A stretch of DNA of 64,000 nucleotides from Pilaira anomala (lineage: Eukaryota; Mucoromycota; Mucoromycetes; Mucorales; Mucoraceae), in the NCBI GenBank assembly GCA_025716855.1, contig JAIXMQ010000002.1:868001-932000 (forward strand), written 5' to 3'. Under the pieces are notes generated by a model. It did no database searches and was not told where the DNA came from. It worked only from the letters and a program-made list of their open reading frames with translations. Positions within the stretch are counted from its first letter, which is position 1, and the number at the start of each line of letters is the position of its first letter. Shown here in pieces: positions 15,019 to 46,858 of the stretch. Both the position numbers and the translations under genes were made by a program.

Positions 15019-17151
15019 TTAACCCATTAAACGCTTAAGATCAGTTAATCTTTGACGTAAACCTTCTCTTTCAGATTCACTTTCAGCATATTTCACTTTG
15101 ATTTCAATAATCATATTTTCCATATAAGCCAATTGATCTTCAAGAGCGGAATTTCTTTCGACAAGAGCAGCATTTTTGGTATATAAAATCTCCATTTCTT
15201 CTTTTACTCTTGTTTCTACTTCAGCAGGTAAAGTTTCAAGAGCCTTTTTGAGATCATTTGATTTTTGAAAGAGAGCTTCATTTTCATCATGAATACGAGC
15301 GATATCCATTTTAGCAGCGATTAATTCAGAAGCGACTTGGGTATGTTCCTTATTTAATTCAGTATAATTTGTATCCAATTGTTTAATTGAATCAGCCAAA
15401 GACTTATTTTGACGTTTTAATGCTTCAATTGCTTCGGCTTCATTATTTGCACGAGCAGATTCGACTTGAAAATCTTTTGCTAACCTATCTAACCTTTTAG
15501 AAACAATTTGAATTTGAAAAGCATCTTTTATAAGTTGGTTTGCATTATCCTTTATTTTAAGGGTTAGTATATAAAAATAGTTATATATTATTATTATTAT
15601 TACCTTGTAGGGTTCAATCAAATCACTTTTTAAAAATGAAACTAAATCGTCAAATTCAAGACTTAGAATGATTGCTTGATTCTTTTCAATTAAAGCTAAA
15701 GAGAATCGTAGTAAAGTCTCTAAGCCTTCTGATAAGATTAAATCATAAATTCTAAATACTATATCTGTAGGTATTTTAAAACTGAAAAGAGTACTAAACC
15801 ATTGATATGCATAAGTATTGGATCGAATACGATGTGCTTCAAAATGTCTTTGAATATGTGGTAAATGATCTGCAATTAATCCTTCTAGTTGATATAATCT
15901 TTGTGATATTAATTCTGATTGCGGTAAAAAATGATTTCTAAGATTGTACTTGTTCATTAACTGAACCAATACACAAAACGCTTCTTCTTCGGGCATCTAT
16001 TATTTATTATAGTTTTAAAAAAAAAAATGCTTATATATCTGTATATTCACACTTACATTTAAGAGTAAAGGAGCAGTAATATGTAATATACTTTGATTAT
16101 ATCCAACATCTGTATCATATAATGAATAAGCTTTCACTACATTAAATAATGCTTCTTGATCATGATTTATATTAAAACAAGCTCTTGGTAAATCTCTTGC
16201 AATCGCCTTTTCATAAACTGATTCCTCTTTTAATAATTGCATATATTGTTCCTCTAATTTCAAGTTTTTACTCTTTGCTAATAATTGCCAAACCATACCA
16301 CGAAGAGATGGTGGTATACCTCTTTGTATATGGTGAGACAATATTTTAGGTTCTGATTTTGATACACTATTAAAGTCCGAAATTACTTTTGACCAAAATT
16401 CTAATAATAACAAAAAAAAAGGGGGGAATCCATGAGTTACCCTGCCTAATAATAAACATTACAAGTCTATTTATTATAATTTACCCCAATCGATCTCTTC
16501 TTCTTTTTCGTCATCCTCTTGTTCATTTTCATCCATAACAACTGCTGGTGCTACTATGACTTCTTGATCATAGTCAAGTTCTTCATTCGATTGTTTTGGT
16601 ATGGTTGTTAAACTTGTAGTTGAAGCATCTTTTGAACCTAATCTAGCCAATAATAAATCATAATTTGAAGCACTTGAAACAAAGGAATGAATAGATGACA
16701 TGGTGGAACGATGACTTTCATTTCTCTTGTGAGTTCTTATTTCATCTTCAAGTAAGCTATCTGAGTCTGAATAGTCTTGGTTACCTACTATTAATGAAGT
16801 AGATTGTTGTAACTCTTGAATATGATCATCGTCATGATGATAATTGTTGCTATTCATTTCAACCACTCGAGGATTTTGTGTTACAGTTAAAGCACGACGT
16901 CTTCTACCAACTGTTGTACTTTCAACTTCTTTTTCATTTTCATTTGTTGTAGCGATCGTATCAAACGAATCATGACTACTTTCTGCATCGTCTTCTGTAT
17001 TATACCCTGACTTATCTGCAAGTGAAGATGAACTTTGTGAACGCACTGTTATTGCTGATCCATTTGTAATCACTGTATCTTTATCAAGTAAAAAATCCTC
17101 TGATTTCTTTTCATTTACTGGTGTAATTACTTTTGCTATTTCTGTCATCAT
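15019..17151 (-). CDS. TBC-domain Rab GTPase-activating protein with C-terminal coiled coil
   Basis: Exons 17151..16485, 16400..16057, 15996..15604 and 15549..15019 give 644 residues. The first 222 are Ser/Asn-rich and acidic. The TBC domain starts at EFWSKVISDF (223) with RGIPPSLRGMVWQLLA. It keeps both catalytic fingers: Arg295 in IARDLPR (IxxDxxR) and Gln325 in GYNQ (YxQ), so it should be active on a Rab. Residues about 480-640 are a heptad-rich coiled coil ending DLKRLMG. The order matches the Gyp5/EVI5 group, which regulates Golgi-to-surface and endosomal Rabs. Convergent with the PQ-loop gene, with only about 60 bases between stops. Confidence 0.92.
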
Positions 17152-17416
17152 ACTCTATATGCGTCTCTCTGTCTCTCTCTCTCTCTTTTATTTTAGTGGT
17201 ATATATATATATATATATATAAAAGGTGAAAAAAAAAGAGAGAAAGAGAAAGAGAGAGAGAGAAAAAAAAAAGGGAGATATAATAAAAAGGAGTGTGTAA
17301 CTAGGTTCATCCAAAGTCACTTTTTTTTTTTTGCGGATTCTAAAATTATTGTTATTGTTTTGTTGTCGTTCTAACGCTCTCTCTCTCTCTCTCTCTCATT
17401 CTAATAAAACATAAAT

Positions 17417-18162
17417 ATGGAAGATACAGTGAAAAAAGACTTGAACGTTTTAATAAAAAAATATGACCATTTTATTGCAAATACTTTAAAACCTTCCTTA
17501 AAAAAAGAACTAGACGAACGCGATTTGATCTTTAATAGCATTTCTGAATAGTAAGAATACCCGTTTTTTTTATTTTTTTTATTTCTTTTTGACTGATCGA
17601 AAAACTTTTTTCATATATACAACAATAAAAAAGTCAAAAGTTAAAAGCACAAATTGATACAATAAAAGACAATGACTTGAAAGAGTTGAAAACAATGGTT
17701 GATCTCGGTTCACAATTCTATGTTCAAGGACACATGTAAAAGAGTTTAGAGAAAATACGTTTTGTACTTTAATACTGATTTATATATATATATATATATA
17801 TATATTTTGATAGACCCGATACAAAATATATTTATGTCAATGTAGGGTTTGGATTTCATGTACAATTCACATTAAAGGAGGCATTAGCATTTATCAAAAA
17901 GAAGGAAGCACAATTACAAAAGTAACCTATCAAATCAATTGTTTTTATTCTGAATTTGTTAAAAATAATGCATTATTATTTTTTTTTTTTTTTTTTTTAG
18001 GTTGGCAGATAAACATACATTAGAAGCAGATAAAATTAGAGCACATATTAAAATGGTAATATATATATATAATATCCTTTAAATATTTCCAACTAAAAAA
18101 AAAACACGATTTAATAGGCATTAGAAGCGATGTCAGAAATATTAATGAACCGTTCATCGTAA
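17417..18162 (+). CDS. UXT-like prefoldin alpha-class subunit
   Basis: Five small exons (17417..17550, 17634..17735, 17814..17921, 18001..18055, 18118..18162) encode 147 residues. The central segment MVDLGSQFYVQGHIPDTKYI, followed by VNVGFGFHVQFTLKEALAF, is the beta-hairpin region of the UXT/ART-27 branch of the alpha prefoldins, flanked by two coiled-coil helices. UXT is part of the URI/R2TP-associated prefoldin-like complex that assists assembly of polymerases and PIKK kinases. Small size and intron density are normal for the family. The protein ends MNRSS. Its ATG lies about 265 bases from the divergent RabGAP start, so the two share a promoter region rich in CT/GA repeats. Confidence 0.88.
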
Positions 18163-18227
18163 ATAGAAAAAATAAAATAAAATATAAAACTTGAAAATTT
18201 CTTTTTTCTTTCAAACAAAAAATAAAA

Positions 18228-18922
18228 ATGAATGCGTTTTTGGATAAAGTTGAAGCTGTTATAAACTATAGCAACAAAAAGATAGAACCAGCTGTCAATG
18301 TAATCGAACCTTACTTTGAGTCTTTCAATAACGAAATGCAACCCATCTTACAAAGACCAATTGACTGGATCCTTTTCGTTTATTTCGCTTCTCACATTCC
18401 CATTACCATCTTTTTCGATTTACAAGGTCTTTACCCTCAATGGTTAATTCCTACATTCTTGTCTCAACTTAACGGTTCTTACTTACAACTCACAAACGAT
18501 CCCTTCATGAATGTCAAGAATGATATCTATTGGTTCAAGAGTTTTGCTTATTGTGAAGCCTTTATACAATTACCCTTCTTTTTCTTCGCCTCTTATGGTT
18601 TACTCAAAAACAAAGGTTGGGTTCGATTACCTTTAGCTAGTAAGTACTCTTTATTAAACTATCCCAAATGATTTATAATATACATTAATCATTTCCCAAA
18701 GTTTATAGCGCTCATGTCATGACAACTGTCTTGCCTTGTCTTGCTGAAATCATCTTTAATCAACACATGTATGGTTTGACAGATATTCAACGCAACATCA
18801 TCTGTTTCCTTTATTTCCCTTATTTCCTCATTCCTTTCATTGGTTTGCTTGATGCCAGCAGACGTATCACAAACAGAATATCTTATGTTGATAAACAATT
18901 AGCTTTAAAGAAGGATACATAA
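18228..18922 (+). CDS. EXPERA-domain ER membrane protein (TMEM97/sigma-2 type)
   Basis: Exons 18228..18639 and 18702..18922 give 210 residues with four predicted membrane helices. RPIDWILFVYFASHIPITIF begins the EXPERA domain and FKSFAYCEAFIQLPFFFFAS is the third-helix signature. The family includes the sigma-2 receptor/TMEM97 and EBP-type sterol isomerases and acts in the ER on sterol handling. The acceptor at 18701 was chosen because the alternative eight bases further on runs into a stop. It begins only 65 bases after the UXT stop codon, in the same direction. The C-terminal VDKQLALKKDT has a lysine pattern compatible with ER retention. Confidence 0.88.
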
Positions 18923-20415
18923 TTTTAATAAAATCATGCTAATTTACCCACCTTTTGACTGTAATCTCATGATACGCAACCTTTTGACACTATTTTTGTC
19001 CCATCAATGCTGTTGTAGAATATATATTGTATATGTATATACATACTGGAACGTCACTAACATCTCTAGAAAAGAATTTGAAGAAAATGGGTAAAGTGAT
19101 TCGTTGTATTCTAGTGGTTGTAGTAGCTCATCATGATGATATGGGATCAAGAATTGGCTAGATGGATTACATACTGATGTATGCAAGGTTCACTACGTAT
19201 ACATATTGCTGTTATGGGATCAAATTCCACTTTAGACAGTAAGATTATTCAATTAATAAAGATACTTAGGGTTTAGACAAGACCAAATAATCAAGTTTTA
19301 TTTATTTATTCAATGAAAAATGAAAAAGAAATATTAAAAGAATTAAACAGTGAATACAAATGAGATTTTTATTTTAAATATTTAACGTTATTCTCCGTAA
19401 TTTCAAGAGGCAGAACAAATCATCAGTCTTGCATGCAAAAGATGTGTTCACATCTACAGCCATCTCTTGTCTGCAAGACCACAAACACACCAGATCTAAA
19501 AAGAAAGCACCATAGACTAACAGCAAGAATAGTAATATACCAGAAGATGTTTAGTTACCTACATAAAAAATAAAAAAAAAAAGACCTGTAGCCCGTTTAA
19601 ATTAGTATTAGAAAACTAAGTAAGCGTGCCACCTAAGCTAAAGACTTGCAGAAGAAGACACCACCACACGATCACCAAACCAACCTAAGAGCCGATACCT
19701 ACCTATAATAGCACCAAAATGAAACTAAGCTAAGGGAGAAAAAAGTGTGAAATAAAAAGGAGAGAAAAGGTTCACACATTATATACCTGAAGAAAAAAAA
19801 AAAAAAAAAAGGATGGCGTTTCATGTTTTGTTTACTTTCATAAAAAAATTTTTTCTTGCTATCTTTTCACAGGGGGTAGAGGTAAACAGACTATTCCTAA
19901 AGCAGTAATTTTTTCTCGTTTTTTTTTCTCATGAAGATAAAGAAACAATCATCACAATACATACTTTATTAAAGGTATGTGTATAAAGATGATGATTAAA
20001 GTAATGTAATATGGAAATGAAAAGCGAATTTTTCAAGATGTCCGTGCTTTTTTTTTTTTTTTTTGAAATTCAGCTTCCTTGATTCGCATACCACTTTTTG
20101 TCTACCACTGCAAGTTATAAAGCAATGTTAAACCTAACAAAACAAACGATGGAACTTAATTTTTTAAGATCACTCTTAACATTTTATTCAAGATCCAGAT
20201 CAGGCATCTTATGTAAGTCAGAAGCTCATTGTAGGTACTTTGGAATCGCCTAATGCAACTGCATTGGTACTTGTAGTAGCTTCATTTACAAAGTTTATTT
20301 CGCACCTACTTTGACCTACTGTATCACTAAATCCGTCATGTCTGAAGCCAACTGAGACGAAAAAAAAAGCCTTGATTTCATCAAGTAGAGATATTCGTAT
20401 ATTGTTTATTTGCGT
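18923..20415. other. Non-coding AT-rich stretch
   Basis: I see no gene. There are A- and T-runs near 19790 and 20048. A 41-codon open segment at about 20185-20310 (plus strand, beginning just after a TAA, no ATG) reads like decayed coding sequence (DPDQASYVSQKLIVGTLESP). It may be a relic exon. Confidence 0.5.
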
Positions 20416-20592
20416 TCAACTAAGTTTGAAAGGAGAATGATTGCTGTGTTTAGAAAAATCAAGATAGTGTGATAGATTATCCACATACTCTGAAGTTTCA
20501 TTGTAAGTTATAGGTCCTGATATAGAAAACCCTCTTGCTTCTGATGGTAATAATGGTGTGTTGGTCTGGTCAGGTTGAAGTATTACAGTCAT
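20416..20592 (-). CDS. Small hypothetical ORF, 58 residues
   Basis: An ATG-to-TGA frame on the minus strand begins MTVILQPDQTNTPLLPSEAR and ends HSNHSPFKLS. Its composition is balanced (Pro, Ser, Thr, Asp, Asn) and unlike the poly-Phe/Lys frames that chance gives in this AT-rich DNA, hence the listing. No signal peptide, helix or known motif is visible. It could be an exon or remnant of a larger gene; its function is unknown. Confidence 0.3.
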   Translation of the reverse strand: MTVILQPDQTNTPLLPSEARGFSISGPITYNETSEYVDNLSHYLDFSKHSNHSPFKLS

Positions 20593-21864
20593 CTAGCTAA
20601 TGACTCGTTCTTTTGTTGGACATTGTCAGTTCATGCTGCTAGTAATAACGTTGACTCACATAAACGAAAAAACAGTTATATATTTTTTTATATCAATCAT
20701 TTTGTTTAAATCTGTTCGTATTTCATAAAGAAAAAAAAAATCTGGATCGGTGGTTACATATTCGAGTATCTTGAAACTAAGTCCTTTTAGTCGTTTTCAT
20801 TTTCTTTGAGTCAAATAGAAAGATGCCTTTTCACCTAGTTAATATAAAAATGCTTGTAAAGTTTTCTTACTGTTTATATAAATTACAAGTAAATGGTTTG
20901 AATAAAAAGTTTAGCACATCGAAGAAAAAAAAAAAGCAAACCCCACTTAATGTGAGATTGTTGAGAGACCTTTCAATAACGATCGCTCTCAGTTTTGCTT
21001 CTACATTTTACCGCATCGCCTACTGAGAGGTAACTAAACCACTTGGTGAATTCAATTATCAAATAAACTTTGTTTCAAATATACATACCTCACCAAATTT
21101 TCATTATGGACAAATTGCGGTTTCGATTTAATGAATCCGACTAAATGTGTTGAGGCACTCAGTGTTTATTAGTAAAGAATATAAAGCACAACAAATGGAT
21201 CGTATCAAATAAAAGTTTCTACTTTCACTCCACATCGTCTTCTTGGTGTAACTAAAATATGTATAATATATGTTCCTATAAATAAAAGGATTATATACAC
21301 CATCAAAAAATGTGTAACTTCAACTTTTTCTTTTTTTATCTACTTGATCAAAGCCCTTAACAACACGTATACACTGCTACACTTAAAAACCTTCTTTGAC
21401 TATATACATATACTCAACTCTCATAATAAAAATCTAAATCCATTACTAATAAAGATGACACACAATTAGTTTGTGTCAAATGTGTCAAAAGAGTTTTGTA
21501 CGGCGTTTGAAAGTTTAACTAGGTACACCATCCCAAAAGCGATATATAAGCATGATTTGGTGAGAATTAAAAGAAGGATAATCATCATCATCATCATCCA
21601 TTTTTATGTGACCAGATAAATCAGACAAATTATCTCACCCAGGTGCGTATGTGTAACAGCTAATACTTATTATAATCGCGATACATACATATGTATGTGA
21701 CAGACATCAAAATAAATGAAAAATAAAGTTATAAAATTTATTTAATTTATTACACAAAACAAATAGTTAAACCAAAAAAGATAACCATTTTTTTTTTTTA
21801 GAATATAAGGACCGGGTTAGACCTGAGAAGAGACAAAAACCTGGAAACGGTGAAATAATACTAG
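20593..21864. other. Non-coding stretch before the microgene cluster
   Basis: No gene recognised. It contains short A-runs and, near 21715-21770, an AATTTATTTAATTTATTAC segment that corresponds to the 3' end region of the first minus-strand microgene. Confidence 0.5.
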
Positions 21865-21921
21865 TTAAGTTTGGGTACCGCAAGAAATACCGGGAGTAGA
21901 TTTAGAACAACAGGAGCCCAT
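21865..21921 (-). CDS. MG-x-C-x-S microprotein 1
   Basis: An 18-residue frame, MGSCCSKSTPGISCGTQT. Gly2 with Ser6 fits the N-myristoyltransferase consensus and Cys4/Cys5 would be palmitoylated, so a membrane-anchored peptide is predicted. A TATAAAAGC box lies at 21996-22004, 75 bases upstream. Between it and the ATG is a leader with CTTTATACTTTTCTCTCATT, conserved among copies. Its sequence ends GTQT like the plus-strand copy at 28955, the mirror position in the cluster. Support is the conservation of promoter, N-terminus and 3' region among copies; a single frame of this length would not be credible alone. Confidence 0.6.
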   Translation of the reverse strand: MGSCCSKSTPGISCGTQT

Positions 21922-21995
21922 GATTATTGATTAATATGTATACGATTAAAAATGAGAGAAAAGTATAAAGTTGAGAGTTTATAAAATTATTTGAT

Positions 21996-22004
21996 GCTTT
22001 TATA
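21996..22004 (-). promoter_or_regulatory. TATA box of microgene 1
   Basis: TATAAAAGC on the minus strand, 75 bases before the ATG. The same nonamer or a one-base variant recurs 72-96 bases before the other copies. Confidence 0.6.
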
Positions 22005-22655
22005 GACAGTTTTTTTATGTCGATTGTTGTTACTGGTATATATGGTTAGCATGACAATGAGCGAATGTTATTTCACATTTTAAACTATATACCTATGTAG
22101 CTAAGTTTTCTTTATTGGGACTCATTATTATAACTACGTATATACAGTGTTATGTCTCAGTATATATACAGGTTATTTGTTGTTACGTAGACTCATTATG
22201 ATAAGCGTAAAGAATAACGATACTGACGTATACGTATAAAATTTTTGGAAATGAACTAAATTTGTTAAAATTTTATTACATTTTAGTTATAAATCAGATA
22301 ATAATACATATTTTAGCTTGCTGCCAGATAAAACAAATTTATAACAGCAGGTACATAACTGCCCGTGATAAGAGAAAATTAAATCAGTTCGATGTTAGAT
22401 ATAATCATAATTTGGGTACCTAGACCGCCTTTGTCTCTTTATTAAAAGCAGTAACATATAAAAAATTGAACAAAAAAAAAGCAAATATGTAGTTTACGAT
22501 AGAAATGTGTTTAATTATTAATTTATTATACAACAGAAATAAAATGCTGATATACAACTAGACTTAAAAAAACGGCGATGATTTTTTTTTTTAAAATGAT
22601 AAAGACCAGGAGAGACCACGAGAGAGAAGGATCTGTAAACTTTTAAATAAAGTTA

Positions 22656-22721
22656 TTAACGAGTGGGGTTAAAAGAAAACCCCATACCACCACGACTAGA
22701 TTTAGAAGAACAGGCACCCAT
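22656..22721 (-). CDS. MG-x-C-x-S microprotein 2
   Basis: A 21-residue frame starting MGACSSKSSRGG and ending GFSFNPTR. Gly2, Cys4 and Ser6 are kept while the second cysteine is Ser. The NPTR ending recurs inside the next copy (GFSYNPTR), showing recent common origin and length change. The TATAAAAGC box is at 22803-22811 and the CTTTATACTTTTCTCTCAT leader lies between. A T18 run directly precedes the ATG on the plus strand. Confidence 0.6.
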   Translation of the reverse strand: MGACSSKSSRGGMGFSFNPTR

Positions 22722-22802
22722 TTTTTTTTTTTTTTTTTAGTAAGTTTTGGCTGTTTAAGATGAGAGAAAAGTATAAAGATCAAAATATACATGTCGTTAG
22801 GA

Positions 22803-22811
22803 GCTTTTATA
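22803..22811 (-). promoter_or_regulatory. TATA box of microgene 2
   Basis: TATAAAAGC on the minus strand, 82 bases before the ATG. A CTGGTAACA-like upstream element lies near 22845. Confidence 0.6.
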
Positions 22812-22961
22812 ATTAATTTTTGTTTGGGGTCCATTATTATATACTGGTAACAAACAAGTATTAATGTTTTTACATTGACATATATATCAATGCGAAACAA
22901 GGTTAGATCAAGTTCTTTTATCTAATAGTTTCTAAAACGAGGAACTATTATTCCTTTATTA

Positions 22962-22964
<3 letters not shown>

Positions 22965-23021
<57 letters not shown>
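22965..23021. repeat. A57 homopolymer
   Basis: An uninterrupted run of 57 adenines between microgene units. Confidence 0.85.
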
Positions 23022-23022
<1 letters not shown>

Positions 23023-23099
23023 AAAAAAGAAGTGTTATCAATAGTGTAACTAAATACAATATGGGCATCTATAACTTATCTTCAACTTATTAGTAGAAA

Positions 23100-23255
23100 G
23101 TAGTTGTATGTATAAAAAAATAAGTCTACATTGTGTTGATATGATGAGAGAAAATATAACCTTAAAAGATACTGAAGTAATAATAATGCTCCTTTTATGA
23201 GTAAATTTTGCTGAGGTTGTTAATGGTACCTAACATGAATCAGGTGCTGGCAACA
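23100..23255 (-). pseudogene. Microgene relic with promoter but no reading frame
   Basis: The upstream motif AGGTGCTGGCAACA (23242-23255), a TATA-like CATAAAAGG (23191-23199) and the TTTTCTCTCAT leader are present in order. However, the ATG at 23131 is followed directly by TAG. The promoter has outlived the coding part. Confidence 0.5.
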
Positions 23256-23760
23256 CTCATATTTTTTTATTTAGCTTCACTAAATATATTATTTTATCAT
23301 CACTTGAATACAAATCTGACATACCTATAGGTGTATACGACTAACCATAAAATGTTGAAAATTTATTAGACAAGCAACTATACAATTACTTTTAATAAGT
23401 TTTATAAAACGTAGTCTTCAAGCATATTAAAGCTTAAAGTCAATTAAAAACATTTTAGTGGTTCATTGTCGAGTTATTATAAGACTGTTTTTGACTCAAA
23501 CGAAGAATCGGATATCGATAAACTTAAACAATCAAGGCTTGTATAGATTATTTGTAGACAAATTAGGATATTTATGAAGAGATAATACTATGTAGCTTTA
23601 AAGTTAGAATAAAGAAAATAAATTGATGGCATATTTAAATTTATTATAAAAAAAAAAATAAACTATTAATTATAACTAGACTTAAAGACGACCATGTATC
23701 ATAAAGGATAAGACCAGGGGATAGCAGAAAAAAGTAGGACTTGAAAACTTTTAAATAATA

Positions 23761-23853
23761 CTATCTACTACTTGAAGAAGGTGTAGCAGGACGAGTAGGA
23801 TTATACGAGAAACCAGCACCAAGAGGAGGAGATTTGGAACAGCAGGATCCCAT
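23761..23853 (-). CDS. MG-x-C-x-S microprotein 3
   Basis: The longest cluster member, 30 residues: MGSCCSKSPPLGAGFSYNPT followed by RPATPSSSSR. The lipidation signature is complete. The tail is proline- and serine-rich and extends the NPTR end of copy 2. The TATAAAAGC box is at 23934-23942, 81 bases upstream. A GTACTTACAGCAA element near 23978 takes the place of the GGTGCTGGCAACA motif. Confidence 0.65.
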   Translation of the reverse strand: MGSCCSKSPPLGAGFSYNPTRPATPSSSSR

Positions 23854-23933
23854 AATTTGATAACTGTATACTTTTGTAAAATGAGAGAAAAATATAAAGC
23901 TAAAATTCATATTTATATTCAAGAAAAATTGGT

Positions 23934-23942
23934 GCTTTTATA
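23934..23942 (-). promoter_or_regulatory. TATA box of microgene 3
   Basis: TATAAAAGC on the minus strand, 81 bases before the ATG. Confidence 0.6.
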
Positions 23943-24238
23943 CTGGGGTTGATTGGTATGAATATAATATGGGTCAGGTACTTACAGCAAATAAATAAAG
24001 ATTTACATTTTAATATTTATACAGGTTATTTACACGCTAGATATGATGTGAGTAAAGATCTATGAATATTTGAAAAGCTTTAAATAAACATAAAAAGAAG
24101 GTGAAAATATCAATTTATTATAAAAACAAAATTTTGCTTCATTGCTAATTGTATTTCTTTAGAGATTAAGAACCAGATCAGACCAGAAGGGGGAGACCCA
24201 GGGAACGTTTAGATAATGTTAGGTGGAAGTCAAAGAGA

Positions 24239-24274
24239 TTAACAGACCCATTCTTGAGACCAACAAGTGCCCAT
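24239..24274 (-). CDS. MG-x-C-x-S microprotein 4
   Basis: An 11-residue frame, MGTCWSQEWVC. It is identical in protein sequence to the plus-strand copy at 27552, and the two lie in an inverted duplication covering roughly 24.1-25.0 and 26.8-27.7 kb. Gly2, Cys4 and Ser6 are kept; the second cysteine is Trp, and a Cys ends the peptide. TATAAAAGC is at 24353-24361 and AGGTGCTGGCAACA at 24406-24419. An AATAAATTGATATTTTC motif lies 119 bases past the stop. Confidence 0.55.
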   Translation of the reverse strand: MGTCWSQEWVC

Positions 24275-24352
24275 GTTTTGATTTAAATGTATGCTGTTAA
24301 AAATTAAAGAAGAATATGAAGAATAAAGACAACTATTCGAAGAAATATTGCT

Positions 24353-24419
24353 GCTTTTATATGTATTTTTTTTTTCGAGTATGTTAATGATCTATAGCAT
24401 TACTTAGGTGCTGGCAACA
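24353..24419 (-). promoter_or_regulatory. Core promoter and upstream element of microgene 4
   Basis: TATAAAAGC at 24353-24361 and the complement of AGGTGCTGGCAACA at 24406-24419, 45 bases apart. The pair recurs with 42-54 base spacing at several other copies. Confidence 0.55.
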
Positions 24420-25041
24420 GAAATCCAGTTATTAATGTATACTATACATAGTATCTTGTTTTTCTATTACTTGAATATTATAAAAACCCTTGAAGAACAC
24501 GACTTAAAAAGGGTTTTTTTTCCTGACAAGTCTCAAAATGAAATAGTGCGACTTTTTGAGTTTCGCAACTCTCAGCCTTCGAGCAAATGAAAGATCCCAG
24601 TTAAATCACTATGCCTTATAAAGTGAATACAAATCTTTTTTTTTTTCTTTAACAAATGATAGTTATCAATATATTAAACACAGGCTTATACAGGTTGTTT
24701 TTTGTTTGGATCATTATTATTACTATATATTTATAACATTGAAAACTAGTTTTTAAGTTATATAAATAAATTATAGTGCTGACAACCAGCAAATAATGAT
24801 TTCATTCTAAGGCTTATTCGTGCTTCTCCGAACAAATCATTATTATATTTATAATGTGTAAACAGCATTTATTGGTCATAAAACTTCAAATAAGTGTATG
24901 AAAATAAAGGGAAAATGCTAATTTATTGTAAAAATGAAATTTGGCTATTTTTTTAAAGGACAATTCTTTAGATTTTTCAGAAAGTAAGAACAGAATGAGG
25001 TTAGAAGAGAGAAGGACCTGGAACCGTTTAGATAACACCAT

Positions 25042-25089
25042 TTAGAAGTCAAAGAGACTAGCTTCTTTTTTAGAACAACACGAGCCCAT
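25042..25089 (-). CDS. MG-x-C-x-S microprotein 5
   Basis: A 15-residue frame, MGSCCSKKEASLFDF, with the full MGSCCSK start. The TATA variant TATAAAAGT is at 25172-25180 and a TAGTGCCAGCAAT upstream element is at 25222. The 3' region (25020-24910) matches the 3' region of the plus-strand copy at 26739, so these two are mirror partners whose tails have diverged completely. Confidence 0.6.
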   Translation of the reverse strand: MGSCCSKKEASLFDF

Positions 25090-25479
25090 AATTTGATATA
25101 AATTTACTGCTTATAAGGATGAATGAGAAAAGGAAAAAGGTGAAAAAAAAATTTGAAGCAATAAAATCGTTACTTTTATAGTCAATTTTTTTTAAGATTT
25201 TAATGGTATATAAGTTGGATCTAGTGCCAGCAATCGATAGATATTTGATATTCTTATATTTCAAGGTTTATACAGGTAATTGTTAGACTCATTACGATGT
25301 GTATTATTAAGAACGGGAATTATGTATAATGCTTTGAGTTAATGGAAATACGCTGCAATATAATATTTTTTTTTATAAATATGAAATTTTATTTTATTAA
25401 ATCATTTAACCCAAGGCCCAGCCTTAAGAATTATAATGACAATACATATGAAAGTAAAAAGACTTGAAAACTTTTAAAT

Positions 25480-25526
25480 TATATGATACGGCCATCGGGA
25501 CAACATTTAGACTAACAGGGACCCAT
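25480..25526 (-). pseudogene. MG-x-C-x-S microgene 6 with early stop
   Basis: The start reads M-G-P-C and is followed by TAG in place of the second cysteine codon. The same frame then continues SKCCPDGRII to TAA. The promoter is intact: TATAAAAGC at 25598-25606 and AAGTGCTGGCAACA at 25660-25673. Either a recent knock-out or a stop-readthrough candidate; the former is simpler. Confidence 0.5.
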
Positions 25527-25673
25527 AATACAATTATTATATATTATTAAAACAAGACACAACTAAGGAAAGGTAGAAAGTTTCGAAAAACACTGTTGCT
25601 TTTATAGTTAATTTTTCTTGAGATTGTTGATAGTACATATATGTATTATATGAATCGTAAAGTGCTGGCAACA

Positions 25674-26655
25674 AACTGTTTTTATAAGTATCACATATTA
25701 TTTTCCGATCGTCTGAATAACATAAACTTAAAATTTCTGAATAAAAAAGATAGTTTTAACGTATATAATTTTTCTAAGGACCCAATCCATCAGTAATACG
25801 CACATCATCATAAAAAGATGTAAGCCTAATACTCTTCTAATGTGTTGTTTTCAGAGTAAAGTGCAAAAATAATGCGAAATATAGAGAGTAGTGGATTTAT
25901 ATATAGCGTCTTTTAACTTCTTGTGAGAGAGGAAACTTCATATATATGTTCATTCGGAGAGATGAATCTCTGGTTTATAGGTGCAAATCTTCATATGATG
26001 TAATAATTAGTAGCTCGTACTTAAAAATATCCTTAGATTGTTTCATAATGTCTGTTTATTGGGTTATTTGTATCTTGTAGTGACAATAGCTTGATTAGTT
26101 GTTAAAAATTCTTTGATTGTTAATTATACTTTTAAAAAAAATTGAATTTTCTTTTGTTGTCACAGTTAATTTAGCTCTTATAGACGAATATTATACATAT
26201 AGAAATAAATGTTGAGATATGGCATATTTTTTTATTTAGTAAGGCCTTACATTAATTCATACGTATGCGTTTATTATTCATTTGTTTTAAATTATTAAAG
26301 TAATTGAAAGACTTATACAATATAGAAAATGGACTATATTCACAAGATGTCAGCTTATGATTAAACTATCACAATGAGATCTAAAATAAAAACTAACTAT
26401 GCAAGTAGCAATATTTCTTTAACTAACTATTTACATACATTTTCTACTCAATACTTAGTTGACTTTCGTCTCTAACTATTATTAGTATACGTTAATCAAA
26501 TTATGAGTGTTATGTGGTTGTTCTAAATGTGTTTTATCTGGCTGTGTGTAGCACCATTATCAAAAAGTTTCAAATCCTCTTTTTTTGTCTCAGCTCATTT
26601 CCATTGTTCTCTTTAAAGTAAAAAGGATTGTCTCTTGGGTTTAAGTAAAATCAAC
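25674..26655. other. Centre of the divergent microgene cluster
   Basis: No gene seen. Microgenes to the left run leftwards and those to the right run rightwards, so this kilobase is the symmetry centre. It is AT-rich and without recognisable repeats. Confidence 0.5.
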
Positions 26656-26738
26656 TTTAAAAGCAACAATACTTTTTCGAAACTTTTTTACCTTTTCCTA
26701 AGTTTTCTCTTATTTTGTTAAATACACATTATCATATT

Positions 26739-26786
26739 ATGGGTTCCTGCTGGTCTATGTGTTGTCCTTCCACTAATATATCTTAA
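26739..26786 (+). CDS. MG-x-C-x-S microprotein 7
   Basis: A 15-residue frame, MGSCWSMCCPSTNIS. Gly2, Cys4 and Ser6 are kept, with two further cysteines at 8 and 9. The TATA element is TTTAAAAGC at 26656-26664, 75 bases upstream. AATAAATTGACATTTT at 26909 lies 123 bases past the stop and is a likely polyadenylation region, repeated after copies 8 and 10. Confidence 0.55.
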   Translation: MGSCWSMCCPSTNIS

Positions 26787-27460
26787 TTTTTTTTAAATTC
26801 TATCCTCTTCTAGTGGTATTCTGTTCTTACTTTTTGTTCTTACTTTCTGAAAAATCTAAATGATGGCCCTTTTTTGGGTTAAAAAATTTAGCCCAATTTT
26901 GTATTTTTAATAAATTGACATTTTACCTTTATTTTCATACACTCATTTACATCTTTATGACTAGTTATTAAATTCTGTTTAAATGTTAGATATAATATGT
27001 AGTTAATGCGCTCGGAGAAACAGGAACAAACCTTTAAAAGTAAATCATTATTTGTTGGTTGTCAGCACCTATATTTTATTCATAACCTTAAAACTAGTTT
27101 TCAGTCTTATAAATACAGAACACGTATAAATCCGTGTTTAATATACTGTTAACTGTCAGTTGTTAAATGAAAAAAAAAAAGATTTGTAGTCACTTTATAA
27201 GGCATAGTTATTTGACTGGGATCTTTCATTTGCTCGAAGGCTGAGAGTTGCGAAACTCAAAAAGTCGTACTATTTCATTTTGAGACTTGTTAGGAAAAAA
27301 AAACCCCTTTTTAAGTTGTGTGCTTCAAGGGTTTTCATAATATTCAAGTAATAGAAAAACAGGATACTATGTATAGTATACATTAATAACTGGATTTCTG
27401 TTGCCAGCGCCTAAGTAATGCTATAGAACATTAACATACTCGAAAAAAAAACTAAATACA

Positions 27461-27469
27461 TATAAAAGC
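27461..27469 (+). promoter_or_regulatory. TATA box of microgene 8
   Basis: TATAAAAGC, 83 bases before the ATG and 49 bases after the upstream GTTGCCAGC element. Confidence 0.6.
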
Positions 27470-27551
27470 AGCAATGCTTCTTCGGATAGTTGTTTTTATT
27501 CTTTATAGTTACTCTTCTCTCATTTTTAACAGTATAAATTTAAATCAAAAC

Positions 27552-27587
27552 ATGGGCACTTGCTGGTCTCAAGAATGGGTCTGTTAA
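27552..27587 (+). CDS. MG-x-C-x-S microprotein 8
   Basis: The 11-residue MGTCWSQEWVC, identical to the minus-strand copy at 24239-24274 although the DNA differs (TGC for TGT in codon 4). Promoter: TGTTGCCAGCGCCT at 27399-27412 and TATAAAAGC at 27461-27469. The 3' motif AATAAATTGACATTTT is at 27698. Retention of the exact peptide in both arms suggests selection or recent gene conversion. Confidence 0.6.
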   Translation: MGTCWSQEWVC

Positions 27588-27943
27588 TCTCTTTGACTTC
27601 CGCCTAACATTATATAAACGTTCCTTGGGTCTCCTCTCTTCCGGTCTAATCTGGTTTTTACTCTTAAAGAAAATACTATTGAATATTTTGTTTTAATAAT
27701 AAATTGACATTTTCACCTTATTTTTAAAAGTTTGAACCTTCGTAACTAGTTATTTCATCTTTACTGACATCATAATCAGTCTATGGATAACCCATTTGAC
27801 TTCTAAAATATCAAACTAACTATCAATCATATATATATTTATAAAAGAAAAAAAAAACTATAAAATCTTAATAATATTTTCCAAAACTTTTTTACTATTA
27901 TGTTTACTTTTTTTCATCTCTAAGAGCGTATATTTATTAAATC

Positions 27944-28033
27944 ATGGGAGTGTGTTGTTCTAATGCCGTTGCTCCTTCTCCTGCTTTTGTCACTAGGAAT
28001 ACTGGTGTTGATATGACATATTATTTGTCATAG
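27944..28033 (+). CDS. MG-x-C-x-S microprotein 9
   Basis: A 29-residue frame beginning MGVCCSNAVAPSPAFVTRNT and ending MTYYLS. The lipidation start is complete, while the tail resembles no other copy. A TATAAAAGA element is at 27840-27848, about 96 bases upstream, slightly further than in other copies. Confidence 0.55.
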   Translation: MGVCCSNAVAPSPAFVTRNTGVDMTYYLS

Positions 28034-28480
28034 TCTTTACACAAATTTTATTTCTACAAAGGTGCAAATAATACCAGAAAATAGTGTAAAATTTATCATA
28101 TTAGTTATTAAAAGTAAATATCTTATCTCTCTATCTCTCAAATATCTGATACTATCCTTTTGAAATTTAATAAAGATTTATAAATGGTAGTCTCAAAGTA
28201 TGTAGCTATCGTATTTTAATTTATATACATGCTATTCTTCAAACCTATAAAATATGATACCTATATGGCTGTTTTTCTAGATATTTGCTACAAAATTTTC
28301 GAAACGTGTCTAGCTACATCTCTCTTTTTAATAAATGTAAATATTAAAATAAAAATTATAAAATATATATCGTTTATTAGCACCTGATCTATTCTATATA
28401 TTAGCAATATCCTTCGGATATTTTATTCTTTTACATTTCACTTTTCTCTCGTCCCATGACAATATATTTTTATCAAAATC

Positions 28481-28534
28481 ATCGGCAGATGCTGCTTTAA
28501 AAAAAACGTCTTATCTTCTTCTAACTACTTCTAG
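28481..28534 (+). pseudogene. MG-x-C-x-S microgene 10, start codon lost
   Basis: A CTTTTCTCTC leader and an AATAAATTGACATTTT 3' motif (28668) frame an ATC-GGC-AGA-TGC-TGC-TTT reading segment, i.e. the family start with ATG changed to ATC and Ser6 to Phe. The frame continues to a TAG at 28532. It is a decayed copy. Confidence 0.5.
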
Positions 28535-28954
28535 ATATTATTACCCAATTTTTTAGGCTCTCCTCCCTTCTCTGACCTTATTTTGTCTCTATTCTGTAAA
28601 ATATTTAAATAATTATCTTCAACGTTGAACAATGGTGCCAAATTCCGTATTTATATTTATATAGTTAATAAATTGACATTTTTACTCTATTGTCATGATT
28701 TAAAGCTTCACGGCTAAAAATTGTTCATTATTACATATCATAATGTCTTCAGAAAAAACTTTGTGCGTCTTAGTTAGTTAAAATGTAAAACGTCATTCGT
28801 TTGTTGTCAGTACTTTAAATATACTAAATATCAGTAACTATCAATGACACCCAAAGCGAAAATTGTCTATAAAATCATCAGTTATTTTCCAAACATATAT
28901 ATTTTCAACTTTATACTTTTCTCTCCTCTTTAATCGTATAAATTTAATTAAATA

Positions 28955-29014
28955 ATGGGCTCTTGTTGTTCTAAAAAAGGCGTTCTCGGCATTTCTCGTG
29001 GTACCCAAACGTAG
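28955..29014 (+). CDS. MG-x-C-x-S microprotein 11
   Basis: A 19-residue frame, MGSCCSKKGVLGISRGTQT. It aligns along its length with microprotein 1 (ending ISCGTQT), its mirror-image partner at the far end of the cluster. Promoter: GTTGTCAGTACT near 28804, TATAAAATC at 28868-28876 and a CTTTATACTTTTCTCTCCTC leader. Downstream, TCTGGTCTAGCCTAGTC resembles the region after the other copies' stops. Confidence 0.6.
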   Translation: MGSCCSKKGVLGISRGTQT

Positions 29015-29059
29015 TATTATCTAAACGTTCCTCTCTTCTGGTCTAGCCTAGTCTTTAAT

Positions 29060-29893
29060 CTTTCTAAAAAAAAAGGGGAGGGGGGTATCGTTCAAGTCTG
29101 TCGATAAATAAGATCTTCCTCTTTTTTGTAATAAAATTAAAATCATTTATCACTTTATAACATTTATTCAAAGCCATATAGAGAAGTAATCATTATCAAA
29201 GTATTACTGTTAAATTTCTGATTTGTTGTTTGGTGGTTTATTTTTTATTTTTTATCTTTTAAACAGATGTATCTGTTGATGAATATTATTTTACTAGAAT
29301 CTAAATATAATATATATAGAATGATAAAAATAATGTATCAAATCTTCTATGTCAATGAAATGAATATTCAATCGACAGCATGAAATTGAAACCTGACAAT
29401 CCTCAAAGACTAAGGAAAGTCTGTGTTCATTATATTGGCATTGTTACAGTTTTTTGTTATGTAGCAAATATACGAAACGACGATCTCTGGGGAAACTCGT
29501 ATTATCATATACCATTATTAAAAATACATATAATACTCATTAATACTATCCGTTGTAGTAGTAACAATTACTTCACTTTCCGAATATGTGAACTGTCAAA
29601 TATAACAGCCAAAAAAAAAAAAAAGACAAAATTTAACTTTAAAAGTACACAATGTAAATACTTAGTCTCTTTGGGTTTTACTCTTTCTATAAAAACAGCA
29701 TAATAGCTCTGGATATTACAAAAGGAAGCATGTTAGTGATGCGACTCTACATACTTGTATGTCGTTTTCGGCCTTTGAAAAAACGCACGTCATAAAAACA
29801 CCCTCGTCTTTGAAGAGGCTTCTTTGTCTTTAAAAAAATACTTTTTTTTCTTATTTAATTTTATTTACGCTGGAAGAAGCATGTATATAAGGA
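29060..29893. other. Intergenic, no convincing gene
   Basis: A 107-codon frame at 29380-29703 has composition typical of chance and no recognisable motif. The last 100 bases are a T-rich leader to the PPR gene. Confidence 0.5.
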
Positions 29894-31774
29894 ATGGTAC
29901 TTCGTTCCTGTTTATACTATAAAAAATGTCCAACCTTTTCAACCAAACGAACGATTACACAAGCAAGAAATATGTTTGCTGTCAAACCGAAATACCCTGG
30001 TGTATCGTTTCAACCATGCTTACCTCAACGACTGGCCATGTCAACAGTGACATCTGTAAACCACATAGAAAAAATAGAAATACCCACTGTTACGAAACCT
30101 GTTGTTACTTTACCCGTGGATAAGCTTGATCAAGTCCTTCATAAACAACTTACACCGAAGCAAACAGTAGCCTTTTATCGTGAACTATCGAAACGAGACG
30201 CGACCGAAATTTATAACTTACTTTTACCTAAATTAGAAACAATAGACTATACACAACTACGACATATATTGATAGACGCTGCTAAGTATTGGACTGTCGA
30301 GAAAATACTTACCTTGATGTCATTATGCAACGGAAAGTACGTTCCATGGCGATTAGACTTGTTACAATCTTTACAATCCAGTTACGTGCTAAGTAAAAAT
30401 ATAGACCACTTACTCCGTGCTTTGCCTGAATCAGGTCCCAATTGTGATATCTTGCCCTTTTATAATTCAGTCCTGAACAGGTGTTTGAAACAAAATCAAT
30501 ACGACCACCTACTTCAAGTGATGGAAATGATGAAACAACGTGATATTGATCCCGATACTGCTACAAATAATATTTTAACTCGAATGCAATTAAAGAACTG
30601 TACAACCGCAGAAGAAAGTTTTAAACTGTATAAAGATATTATTTCAAATGGTGTGAAACCAAATCCTGTTACATTTAATACATTCCTCAAGTATGCGTGT
30701 AAACATAAACAATGGGATATGTTATCAACTTGGTTAGATACGATGAAAGAAGATGGAGTGGAACCTAATCATATTACTGTACGTATTTTATTTAAAGCGT
30801 ATGTAGATAATCCCACCGATACGAATGTGGAAGAAGCGTTTGAACGTGTGTCAAAATCAACACCTATTAATGGAAAGGAAAAACTTTTAAATACGGGTAT
30901 TACAAAGCTATTAGAGACGAAGCAAACGAAAGCAGCAATGAATTTACTGGATAAAACCTTCGAATCGAATGAACCACTTTCTTTGTATTCTTACAACTTA
31001 TTATTACAAGCACTATGTTTAGATGGTAAAGTAGAGTTAGCACAACAAGTATTGGACTCTATGGTTACAAGAGACAATAATAACATACCCCAACCTGACA
31101 TTGTAAGCTTTACGACCCTGATTCACGGACTTATTCGTAACTCGACAAATACAGATATTGAACAAGTTAGTATAGTATATAAACAATGTTTAGATCAAGG
31201 ATTACAATCGAACAATGTATTACAATCAGTCATGTTATATGGATTAATTCGATCAAATCAAAATATGGAAGTAACAAAGATTAAAAGTATGTTTGAGTTG
31301 ATTATGAAGAATAAAAATGTACAAAGATTACCGCGACTATCAACAGATAAAGAATTAGATGAGATGATAATTTATAATATGATGATGGATTTTTACTTTT
31401 TACATTATCACCATTCAATTACTTTAAGAGATCAAATACCTAAAGAACCATTTGCTTTATTACAAGATGCTGTAGAACATAAAAAGTTAAAACCGACTGT
31501 TTCTACCTTGAACATTTTAGTACGTGGATTAGCAATATTGAATAAAGATTTAATTGGTGCCGAAAAGATGGTTTCATTATTAAAAGGAAAAGGCGTAAAA
31601 ATAGATGAAAGGACAGTTTGGTATTTAAGTAAATCTGCTTATAATCAAGGTCAAATAACTAAAGCTCGCCAATGGATTGATCTATTTGAATCAGAACACA
31701 AACCGATTGAAGGCTCTGGCTTAATCGATTTAAAATCAATTCTAACGAAATGGGACAAGAAAGAAGAAGAATAG
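29894..31774 (+). CDS. Mitochondrial pentatricopeptide-repeat (PPR) protein
   Basis: A single exon of 626 residues. The N-terminus is basic, with Arg, Lys and Ser but few acids (MVLRSCLYYKKCPTFSTKRT), consistent with a mitochondrial presequence. PPR units are visible at about residues 190-310 (FYNSVLNRCLKQ; GVKPNPVTFNTFLKYACKH; GVEPNHITVRILFKAY), 365-430 (YSYNLLLQALCLDGK; PDIVSFTTLIHGLIR) and 535-605 (TVSTLNILVRGLAILNK). Such proteins bind organelle RNA for processing, stability or translation. The RNA target is not predictable here, and I do not match it to a named yeast factor. It converges on the Twinkle gene with about 140 bases between stops; that gap contains an (AC)n repeat. Confidence 0.9.
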   Translation: MVLRSCLYYKKCPTFSTKRTITQARNMFAVKPKYPGVSFQPCLPQRLAMSTVTSVNHIEKIEIPTVTKPVVTLPVDKLDQVLHKQLTPKQTVAFYRELSKRDATEIYNLLLPKLETIDYTQLRHILIDAAKYWTVEKILTLMSLCNGKYVPWRLDLLQSLQSSYVLSKNIDHLLRALPESGPNCDILPFYNSVLNRCLKQNQYDHLLQVMEMMKQRDIDPDTATNNILTRMQLKNCTTAEESFKLYKDIISNGVKPNPVTFNTFLKYACKHKQWDMLSTWLDTMKEDGVEPNHITVRILFKAYVDNPTDTNVEEAFERVSKSTPINGKEKLLNTGITKLLETKQTKAAMNLLDKTFESNEPLSLYSYNLLLQALCLDGKVELAQQVLDSMVTRDNNNIPQPDIVSFTTLIHGLIRNSTNTDIEQVSIVYKQCLDQGLQSNNVLQSVMLYGLIRSNQNMEVTKIKSMFELIMKNKNVQRLPRLSTDKELDEMIIYNMMMDFYFLHYHHSITLRDQIPKEPFALLQDAVEHKKLKPTVSTLNILVRGLAILNKDLIGAEKMVSLLKGKGVKIDERTVWYLSKSAYNQGQITKARQWIDLFESEHKPIEGSGLIDLKSILTKWDKKEEE

Positions 31775-37406: not shown

Positions 37407-39455
37407 TTACTGGGTTTTAACCAAGACTTCGCCCAATAAATAAACGAATTTGATATATTAACGACTCTAATTTTGCTCATTACATCACATGGAAAAAAAC
37501 GTCGATTTTACCCTGTCGATTTCTCCACGTGATGTACCTGCCTATATTAATTACAGGTTTTTGCCGGGTCGAAACTCATAAATCTTTGCTGTCCGGTTAC
37601 ATCGCGTAGAGAAAATCGACAGGGTAAAATCAACAATCCTGGTAATTAAAAGTTGCATTCTTGTCGATTCTAAATATAACTCTGTCGGTTTTAAATATAA
37701 GTATTCATCTCTAATGGCCGAAAAGGAAAAGAAGTTAGATCTTCTTAGCTTTATCATTCCCCCGAAGCATCGACCAGGAACCGATTTAATGTCAAAGACA
37801 ATTTTAAAAGATAAGAAAGTCATTAATTTAATTGTTTCAGTCTTAGTTGGTATGTTACAAATATGAACTATTGTTGAAGCTTCTCACTAACGCTATTAGT
37901 TTGTATGTAGGTAATTATGCCATTAACAATTATATTCCCCAAGATGGTGAATGGCTGGATGGAAAACGTGCCGATGTTCTTTTAGTCCCTGCTATAAATG
38001 TCTCAGAGTCGATGCCGCCAGTGTTGATTGAAATTCAAAACACAGTCGACAATGCATACATACACAGACTCAACAAATACTGCAATTATGTATATGACAA
38101 ATACAATAATTTCGAACCGATTGCATTTACAATCTGCATAAAAAATATACAAGAGGAAATTTGTAGTATATTTTCTGACACTCATAAAGCATCGTATTTA
38201 AAGGAGCTTCCAAGCCATTTCTGGGCAAAAGAGCATTTGATAATGACCCCTGCAACTATCGCAAACTACATTCATAGCAACGAAAACGACGACGGTGACA
38301 GTGACACTGATGGTGACAGTGATGGCAATACCAACAGCACTAACAACAACGTCAACGATAACGACAACGTCAACGATAGCACCAACACCAACACCAGCAA
38401 TACCAACACCAGCAATACCAACACCAGCAATACCAACACCAGCAATACCAACACCAGCAATACCAACAGTCATTCTCTTCCACCTTTGGTTGCTTTAGGA
38501 TATGTACTAATGGAGCAGAAATGCTCGTTATTTGGATTACAATACAAAGAGGACCCAACAGTCATTTTATTATATAAAATTGCTAAAGAGGCTCTTGAGC
38601 ACCAAATTCAAAATCACGAAGCTACTGTCGACACATTGTTGGAGGTTGCTACAGAAACTCAAAAGCAATTTAAAAGAATAATTGAAGTAGTAAACGGGGG
38701 CGAACCAAACCTTAAAAAAATCAGAAGTTTAGCAAGTTCAGGTGTGTTGTACACCGAAACAGGCTTACACAAATACCAATGGGAAAGCTGTGATGATTCC
38801 GATGCAATGCCAACGCCATTAAACCTCCCGCCAAACGTTCGATCCCAAAAAAGACGAGGCACAAACAGCGATATATTACCATCAATGACAACCATTGTCC
38901 CACAAAAGGATGATATAAAATATGCCAGGGAATTTAAAGAAGAGTATTTAAAAACCCACAAACGAATGAACTGGAAAGCCTGTTATGATAAAGGGTTGAA
39001 CGAAGGCTATTTCTCCAAATACAAAAGCCATATAACGTTGAAGAGCACATTTAACAAAATAAACAAATGATTGCATACCTTTTTCATATGTATACATATC
39101 TTTATATAAATTATTCCCGTTACTGTCATGTTTCTTTAATACTTTCCTTTCAATTTGAGACTGCAATAGAATGGTAAAATAAGTAATGAAAATATCTTAA
39201 AAGGACAATGATAAGCTCGCTGAGACTTTTTCAAGAGTTTATTATGATAAAAATACTATGGGGGTTTTCTATTTTATTTTAGTTATGTTCTTATCTATGT
39301 TTTAAGTGAAGAGAATAAAGTTAAACCTGATGTGGTATTTGCCACTATATAAAGAACAGTTAACTCACAGTATTATTCTTGCTCAAGTTATCGTATGAGA
39401 TTAATTTAATACAGTTCAATTATAATTGTACTGTAGACTTTTGCACCTATATATT
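37407..39455 (+). mobile_element. Solo copy of the palindromic element
   Basis: It shares its left end (TACTGGGTTTTAACCAAGAC) and right end (TTTTGCACCTATATA) with the composite element at 5848-13429 but holds one gene and barely two satellite units (37490-37625). The parts lying between about 5945 and 8000 and between 12387 and 13328 of the composite are missing. It sits inside a Tc1/mariner transposase gene whose halves flank it, which independently supports the stated ends to within a few tens of bases. Confidence 0.75.
37714..39070 (+). CDS. Element-encoded protein, Rpn/PD-(D/E)XK-like, copy 3
   Basis: Exons 37714..37849 and 37911..39070 give 431 residues. The first exon has the same 136-base length and the intron the same borders as in copies 1 and 2. 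ADVLLVP and VLIEIQN are unchanged. It differs by a shorter and purer Ser-Asn-Thr repeat (about residues 170-205) and by a segment of about 28 residues (PLNLPPNVRSQKRRG and flanks) missing from copies 1 and 2. Without the satellite its promoter is reduced to about 220 bases, so it may be silent or differently regulated. Confidence 0.75.
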
Positions 39456-46759: not shown

Positions 46760-46858
46760 TTACCAAGTAGAAGAACTACTGTATGAACTGAAGCTAGCAC
46801 TATCACTACAGCTAACACTATCACTAGAACCGGATGATGAAGAGCAACAAGAACCCAT
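46760..46858 (-). CDS. MG-x-C-x-S microprotein, serine-rich outlier
   Basis: A 32-residue frame starting MGSCCSSSSGSSDSVSCSDS and ending SSYSSSSTW. It has the same lipidation signature as the 21.8-29.0 kb cluster, with a tail that is over half serine. Upstream, a TATTTAAGAGC element near 46935-46945 stands about 80 bases before the ATG, like the cluster's TATAAAAGC. It shows that the family is not confined to the cluster. Confidence 0.55.
   Translation of the reverse strand: MGSCCSSSSGSSDSVSCSDSASFSSYSSSSTW

Follow-up and report, generated by a model that had tools for sequence, protein, structure and literature searches.

Organization of the gene cluster

The 64,000-nucleotide window analyzed here covers positions 868001–932000 of contig JAIXMQ010000002.1 of Pilaira anomala (C112; C-numbers are contig labels throughout), in a genome of 34.25 Mb and 225 contigs, and carries between 21865 and 29014 a cluster of very short open reading frames (ORFs) whose products begin MG-x-C-x-S. 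Scanning the window for frames opening ATGGG identified nine intact frames of 18, 21, 30, 11, 15, 15, 11, 29, and 19 amino acids in this interval (Table 1), and alignment of the units with their surroundings added three relics (minus 23131, minus 25526, and plus 28481); an earlier note on this DNA had the same number of relics but only eight intact frames. The frames were said there to lie in a gene desert, and they do sit in a stretch, 17151–29894, without any listed ORF of at least 150 amino acids. The units can be aligned from the TATA box to the 3′ region and have the TATA box, a pyrimidine-rich leader, the start, and a 3′ block in common, a shared setting that the note had already described. 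Gly-2, Cys-4, and Ser-6, the residues it held to be constant, are kept in all nine intact frames.

Most of the cluster is an inverted duplication centered at ∼25.91 kb, with minus-strand units to the left, plus-strand units to the right, and an identity between the arms of up to 94%. The arms 24192–24703 and 27112–27634 are mostly 93–94% identical, with other parts at 79–89%, and lie inside an older, more diverged palindrome, a pattern that suggests recent gene conversion between the palindrome halves. Unit 26739 (26694–26961) looks like a mosaic: the start region pairs with relic 25526 (repeat I7), the 3′ portion with unit 25089 (I4 and I16). A run of 57 A, one of four plus-strand runs of at least 30 A in the window, lies beside relic 23131 at 22965–23021.

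Coding constraint on the start of the frames

Among the nine intact window units, none of the 216 pairwise cells at positions 1 and 2 of codons 2, 4, and 6 differs, and 50 of the 108 cells at the wobble positions of these codons do. Codon 3 differs in 58 of 108 cells and codon 5 in 26 of 108, and the difference rate in ungapped leader columns is 0.32. Because these units can be aligned through their flanks, the constancy of the motif in the window cannot be put down entirely to the search. For seven paralogue pairs the ratio of nonsynonymous to synonymous differences per site (pN/pS) is 0.18 over codons 2–6 (synonymous differences Sd 9, nonsynonymous differences Nd 5); the in-frame BLOSUM score exceeds that of column shuffles in all seven (P at most 0.019), and amino acid identity does so at P <0.05 in six, both scores being biased upward for the reason given below. 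Over nine pairs, not all of them independent, codons 1–6 are 86% identical, the flanks 67–69%, and the tails 57%. Drift of the ATG, Gly-2, Cys-4, and Ser-6 codons at the rate of the flanks, which the earlier note had named as the outcome that would speak against its proposal, is thus not seen in the nine intact window paralogues; one unit on C152, described below, does keep the upstream region of a family gene in front of a frame without the motif. The proposal that the cluster encodes translated microproteins is well supported by the codon-level constraint together with the clusters found elsewhere in the genome, and from these sequence comparisons we consider it very likely that the units are translated peptide genes.

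The tails were described as diverging freely, which overstates the case, as two motifs are each common to a pair. GFS[FY]NPTR is retained between units 22721 and 23853, where 8 of the 15 changed codons are synonymous and 7 are replacements, and GIS-x-GTQT is retained between units 21921 and 28955.

Promoter, leader, and 3′ elements

In the ten window units measured, including relic 25526, a TATA-like site precedes the ATG by 80–91 nucleotides; for units 27944 and 28955 it was taken from the TATA-gated pattern (TATAAAATC), the leader script having picked another. The MG start is the first ATG beyond 30 nucleotides past the TATA site in 20 of 24 units. The frequency of ATG is 0.0034 per nucleotide in leaders versus 0.0175 further upstream, a depletion that appears only in this comparison with upstream DNA and is not significant (P 0.45) against a Markov null made from the leaders themselves. 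The motif TGTTGTCAG, which was derived from the window units themselves, is present within one mismatch in 13 of 24 units versus 9% of 600 control stretches. An upstream element resembling TGTTGYCAGYACY is present within two mismatches in 11 of 24 units versus 4% of 600 controls, and in 6 of the 14 units outside the cluster. The idea of a shared regulon acting through this element is only half supported, as its exact matches across the genome resemble background. Downstream of the start, AATAAA first occurs at 128–225. A 3′ region had been claimed for every unit; the shared 3′ block is indeed present, but a uniform 3′ element is not, as AATAAATTGACATTTT is exact in only 3 of 12 units, one of them a relic, and 5 of 12 have it with no more than two mismatches.

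Family members elsewhere in the genome

The pattern ATGGGNNNNTGYTSNTCN has 31 matches in the genome versus 13 for the reversed pattern, and when its TGY is swapped for GTY the count is 10 versus 11 in the reversal, in agreement with the earlier argument against chance. Reversal is an imperfect null, as one TATA-gated pattern gave 21 matches versus 4 even though family places account for just 4 of the 21. The first TATA-gated pattern gave 23 matches versus 7 in the reversal, 15 of them family places including relic 25526; 12 of the other 25 TATA-gated matches were inspected (eleven and C182:153508). By judgement from start, length, TATA site, and context, 20 of the 31 ATGGGNNNNTGYTSNTCN matches were assigned to the family: the nine of the cluster, window position 46858, three on C26, three on C152, one on C24, two on C204, and C112:185279. 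A second pattern (19 matches versus 5 in the reversal) contributed three more, C24:605358 (89 amino acids, Ser/Gly-rich), C26:11597, and C112:184907. The total is 23 intact members, 14 of them beyond the cluster. Of these 14, 11 are on other contigs and 3 are on C112, including one on the minus strand at 46858 of the window itself. The family is therefore not confined to 21865–29014, and the earlier reader had understated its spread.

Three genes on C26 (9432, 10043, and 11597) are colinear with three on C152 (41233, 40519, and 40031) in blastn comparison, in which matches cover the middle gene (E 1e-50), DNA following the first gene (3e-14), and the beginning of the third (2e-5). The middle peptide retains its ...NVVWWK tail on both contigs; as a query, the C152 copy had just two matches, its own sequence and the C26 counterpart (E 7e-4). 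When one window unit was used as a DNA query, the three places returned were all inside its own cluster. No common neighbor was obvious by eye, without a family search, among frames of at least 110 codons at seven places. A relic-like start, ATAGGTTCGCGTTGTTCT, lies ∼300 nucleotides upstream of C24_606053.

The remaining 11 ATGGGNNNNTGYTSNTCN matches were set aside by eye as belonging to longer genes (first exons or internal segments), as two four-residue frames, or as a repeated 18-amino acid frame; the last, MGHCCSRNKSKKVLYWRF, is identical at C152:85731 and C202:105181 together with its near surroundings and was left uncounted as a repeated segment. Of the second pattern, 16 of the 19 matches were not assigned (13 of these were inspected, among them those on C13, C148, and C149:405972). 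C148:118669 (MGGCISKSICHPGMSH) and C35:56272 (MGTCLSFCMVSFFGSYPLYRYK) are possible members that were not counted. Of 19 peptides, the 13 that were long enough to scan gave no family in Pfam or NCBIfam, and the sole Pfam match was to a cadherin motif at E 0.26. No description of such a family was found among the open-access papers searched.

The predicted lipidation signal and known membrane anchors

Gly-2 followed by Ser-6 is the preference of N-myristoyltransferase (NMT), and adjacent cysteines are typical palmitoylation sites. SH4-type dual-acylated proteins begin Met-Gly, with a permissive residue at position 3 and Ser or Thr at position 6; Gly-2 and Ser-6 are present in all nine intact window units, and 22 of the 23 members fit a myristoylation pattern. 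Cys-4 is found in all nine window units, and one to four cysteines occur among residues 3–9 in all 23 members, the 14 outside ones having been selected by the motif. The host genome contains one NMT gene region and 19 matches to DHHC enzymes, 18 of them over the cut-off.

The sequence MGSCCS is reported to be S-acylated and needed for membrane location in ZmCPK9 and OsCPK2 (PMC7152618), the first 16 amino acids of AtCPK5 (PMC3668125) and the first 18 residues of HASPB (PMC3491706) are reported to be enough for plasma-membrane targeting, and yeast Vac8 is described as carrying a myristoylated Gly with palmitoylated Cys-4, Cys-5, and Cys-7 (PMC12734321). Because N termini of 16–18 residues suffice in these proteins, a product of 11–30 residues could be a complete anchor. 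The acylation logic of the earlier note stands as far as the start is concerned, which fits dual acylation by both the MGSCCS precedent and the pattern, and the motif makes it likely that the peptides are acylated and membrane-bound. If so, they would work like the anchors of HASP, Vac8, and the plant CPKs.

The likeness to each of these has limits. MGSCCS is identical in ZmCPK9/OsCPK2, where the anchor belongs to a kinase, whereas here it is a stand-alone product. Vac8 also has a myristoylated Gly and palmitoylated cysteines near its start, but these are followed by armadillo repeats, whereas the window frames stop after 11–30 codons, leaving an anchor and a short tail; identity as Vac8 is ruled out by the lack of armadillo repeats after the anchor. 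Leishmania HASPB shares the SH4-type N-terminal myristoylation and palmitoylation, and the HASP and SHERP genes occupy a 12 kb locus likened to ours by layout only (as described in PMC3491706 and PMC5540225), but HASPB comes from another kingdom, is larger and exposed at the surface, and has a start given as MGSSC with the first Cys at residue 5.

Proposed function and alternative explanations

We regard it as probable, on the sequence data presented above, that the units encode translated, probably dual-acylated microproteins consisting of little but an anchor. They would form a family of very short protein-coding genes that is dispersed and evolves by birth and death, with clustered and single members, each with a TATA-like site before the start, a short leader, and a 3′ region. 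Met-1 would be removed and Gly-2 then myristoylated by NMT, and Cys-4 and Cys-5 would be S-acylated by DHHC enzymes, steps predicted from the motif for which both enzyme families are encoded. The peptide would reside on the cytosolic face of a membrane with a Ser/Gly-rich tail. Its effect may be generic and depend on dose, not on binding specific to the tail: the peptides could fill or modify an inner-leaflet domain, or they could occupy anchor sites and the acylation machinery. This action is favored because the anchor is conserved whereas most tails are not, but it is offered tentatively, and our confidence in it was lowered slightly because tail rates proved poorly measurable. Similarly speculative is the idea that Mucor-group fungi keep anchor-only lipopeptides genome-wide, their genes serving solely to supply a dual-acylated N terminus with a disposable tail, which by its dose would tune the acylation machinery or the composition of the inner leaflet.

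Several observations weigh against the anchor-only microproteins proposed here. The upstream region of C26_7963 matches C152:39144–39415 (73% over 275 columns, E 8e-41), and the frame behind that region, C152:39065 on the minus strand, encodes 47 amino acids with a Ser/Lys head, MSKSSSKSSSKDC, and then a hydrophobic Gly-rich stretch, without MG-x-C-x-S; the motif is therefore not a fixed partner of the promoter. The exact upstream element is near-random genome-wide (13 matches versus 5 in the reversal, 9 of the 13 outside the cluster), no MG-x-C-x-S frame was found near the nine outside elements in the ∼0.5–1.5 kb read, and 6 of the 14 non-window units do not contain the 9-base core of the element even at one mismatch. 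Since members outside the window were found via the motif, their Gly, Cys, and Ser are fixed by construction, and since codons were paired via the protein alignment, the BLOSUM and identity scores are biased upward. One of the 23 members, MGPCCS, breaks the myristoylation pattern, and protein searches found no relatives outside this genome, although queries of ∼20 residues against 5.8 billion proteins hardly reach significance. In a shuffled-sequence control (20 shuffles per sequence, nine pairs), the floor of alignment identity is ∼50%; of the nine pairs, five exceed it by 2 standard deviations in their 5′ flanks, eight in their 3′ flanks, and only three in their tails; the paralogy of units 23853 and 27944 is unsupported by their flanks in this control, and some tails contain indels not divisible by three. 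The tail pN/pS of 0.72 (Sd 32.2, Nd 84.8; seven paralogue pairs) is unreliable because most tails are saturated or replaced, and it rests on alignments mostly no better than shuffled DNA, so that positive selection on the tails is neither demonstrated nor ruled out.

Some of these observations would be expected if the units were short non-coding transcription units, in which the RNA matters and the frame is incidental. The better conservation of 3′ flanks than of tails, the 11-amino acid products at the limit of what counts as protein, and the promoter copy preceding a different frame at C152:39065 all point this way. However, the Gly-2, Cys-4, and Ser-6 codons vary at the wobble position only, with the low pN/pS over codons 2–6, the tail common to units 22721 and 23853 is kept through synonymous change in 8 of 15 changed codons, and the identical type of start recurs in clusters with other flanks, which makes this explanation improbable. 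As for a structured RNA, the window has no Rfam or tRNA match. Even less likely is an origin as duplicated, truncated first exons of a longer gene for an acylated protein of the Vac8, G-alpha, or ubiquitin-domain kind. By eye, C171:719231 and C149:405972 resemble G-alpha first exons and C143:332376 adjoins a ubiquitin-like frame, but every family frame has its own stop and a varied length, the 3′ block is common to the window paralogues, and inspection by eye showed neither a downstream frame common to the nine units nor a consistent donor/branch arrangement after the frame.

Alternatively, the tail could be the active part, with variable cytosolic tails serving self-recognition or the trapping of viral or mobile-element proteins. 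Six of nine paired tails lie within 2 standard deviations of shuffled DNA while eight of nine 3′ flanks are more alike, and the three relics and the inverted duplication indicate turnover of copies; the pooled tail pN/pS is nonetheless below 1, though near saturation, and some tails are conserved, so that we consider this unlikely, if the least so of the alternatives. A small mobile or satellite-like repeat carrying the frame by chance would account for copies in both orientations and for the palindromic layout, but the DNA search with one unit did not leave its own cluster, gene order is kept between C26 and C152, and the constraint is coding, leaving this explanation highly improbable.

With regard to the anchor-only microproteins, the C152:39065 product may, judged by eye, be a different small membrane peptide, possibly one that spans the membrane, expressed from a related promoter; among six other places and the window, two other frames have similar MSK/MS starts behind a TATA-like site, neither of them alike. 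In the anchor-only lipopeptide reading this hydrophobic peptide would serve the same purpose by another route, the promoter class being one for membrane-bound microproteins. If the reading is true, at least 23 genes of one genome have products mostly below the usual annotation size, frames this short being discarded by annotation, and what stays constant in them is a signal for lipidation rather than a folded domain, which raises the question of what an anchor does when anchoring nothing. There would then be eukaryotic gene families visible solely by codon-level constraint across paralogues, and the peptides would be natural minimal substrates for NMT and DHHC enzymes.

Table 1. Units of the cluster and related elements, in window positions; units are named in the text by the position of their first base
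Feature	Position	Strand	Basis or remarks
Tiny frame MGSCCSKSTPGISCGTQT, 18 aa	21865..21921	-	ATGGG scan; TATAAAAGC 83 nt upstream
Tiny frame MGACSSKSSRGGMGFSFNPTR, 21 aa	22656..22721	-	TATA 90 nt upstream; tail in common with 23853
Relic unit, ATG then directly TAG	23114..23131	-	Repeat D7; leader kept, upstream element at 23243-23255
Tiny frame MGSCCSKSPPLGAGFSYNPTRPATPSSSSR, 30 aa	23761..23853	-	ATGGG scan; TATA 89 nt upstream
Tiny frame MGTCWSQEWVC, 11 aa	24239..24274	-	DNA twin of 27552, inverted repeat 93-94% (I1-I3); TATA 87 nt upstream
Upstream element TGTTGCCAGCACC of unit 24274	24407..24419 (C112:892407-892419)	-	Exact-element search
Tiny frame MGSCCSKKEASLFDF, 15 aa	25042..25089	-	ATGGG scan; TATA 91 nt upstream
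Relic unit MGPC, stop at codon 5, then S	25509..25526	-	TATAAAAGC 80 nt upstream
Upstream element TGTTGCCAGCACT of relic 25526	25661..25673 (C112:893661-893673)	-	Exact-element search
Tiny frame MGSCWSMCCPSTNIS, 15 aa	26739..26786	+	TATA-like site TTTAAAAGC 83 nt upstream; exact 3′ element 26909-26924
Tiny frame MGTCWSQEWVC, 11 aa	27552..27587	+	TATA 91 nt upstream; exact 3′ element 27698-27713
Tiny frame MGVCCSNAVAPSPAFVTRNTGVDMTYYLS, 29 aa	27944..28033	+	ATGGG scan; TATAAAATC at 27859
Relic unit, ATC for ATG, Gly2/Cys4 retained, Ser6 gone	28481..28498	+	Exact 3′ element 28667-28682
Tiny frame MGSCCSKKGVLGISRGTQT, 19 aa	28955..29014	+	TATAAAATC at 28868; upstream element TGTTGTCAGTACT at 28802-28814
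Additional tiny frame MGSCCSSSSGSSDSVSCSDSASFSSYSSSSTW, 32 aa	46760..46858	-	Lies beyond 21865-29014

Other features of the window

The cluster is adjoined by a gene for a pentatricopeptide protein (29894–31774) that is 67% identical to a Mucor flavus protein and 89% identical to a second database record. Three near-copies of a frame of 380–407 amino acids with Asn/Thr/Ser-rich repeats are found at 6614–7756 (minus strand), 10899–12065 (plus), and 37847–39070 (plus); the two that were scanned gave no Pfam match over the cut-off. A small frame, MGVFYFILVMFLSMF, occurs at both 12290 and 39258, a recurrence indicating that whole segments are repeated and are perhaps mobile. A further frame of 162 amino acids at 8124–8612 consists mainly of IDRVET-x-x-ILSI repeats.

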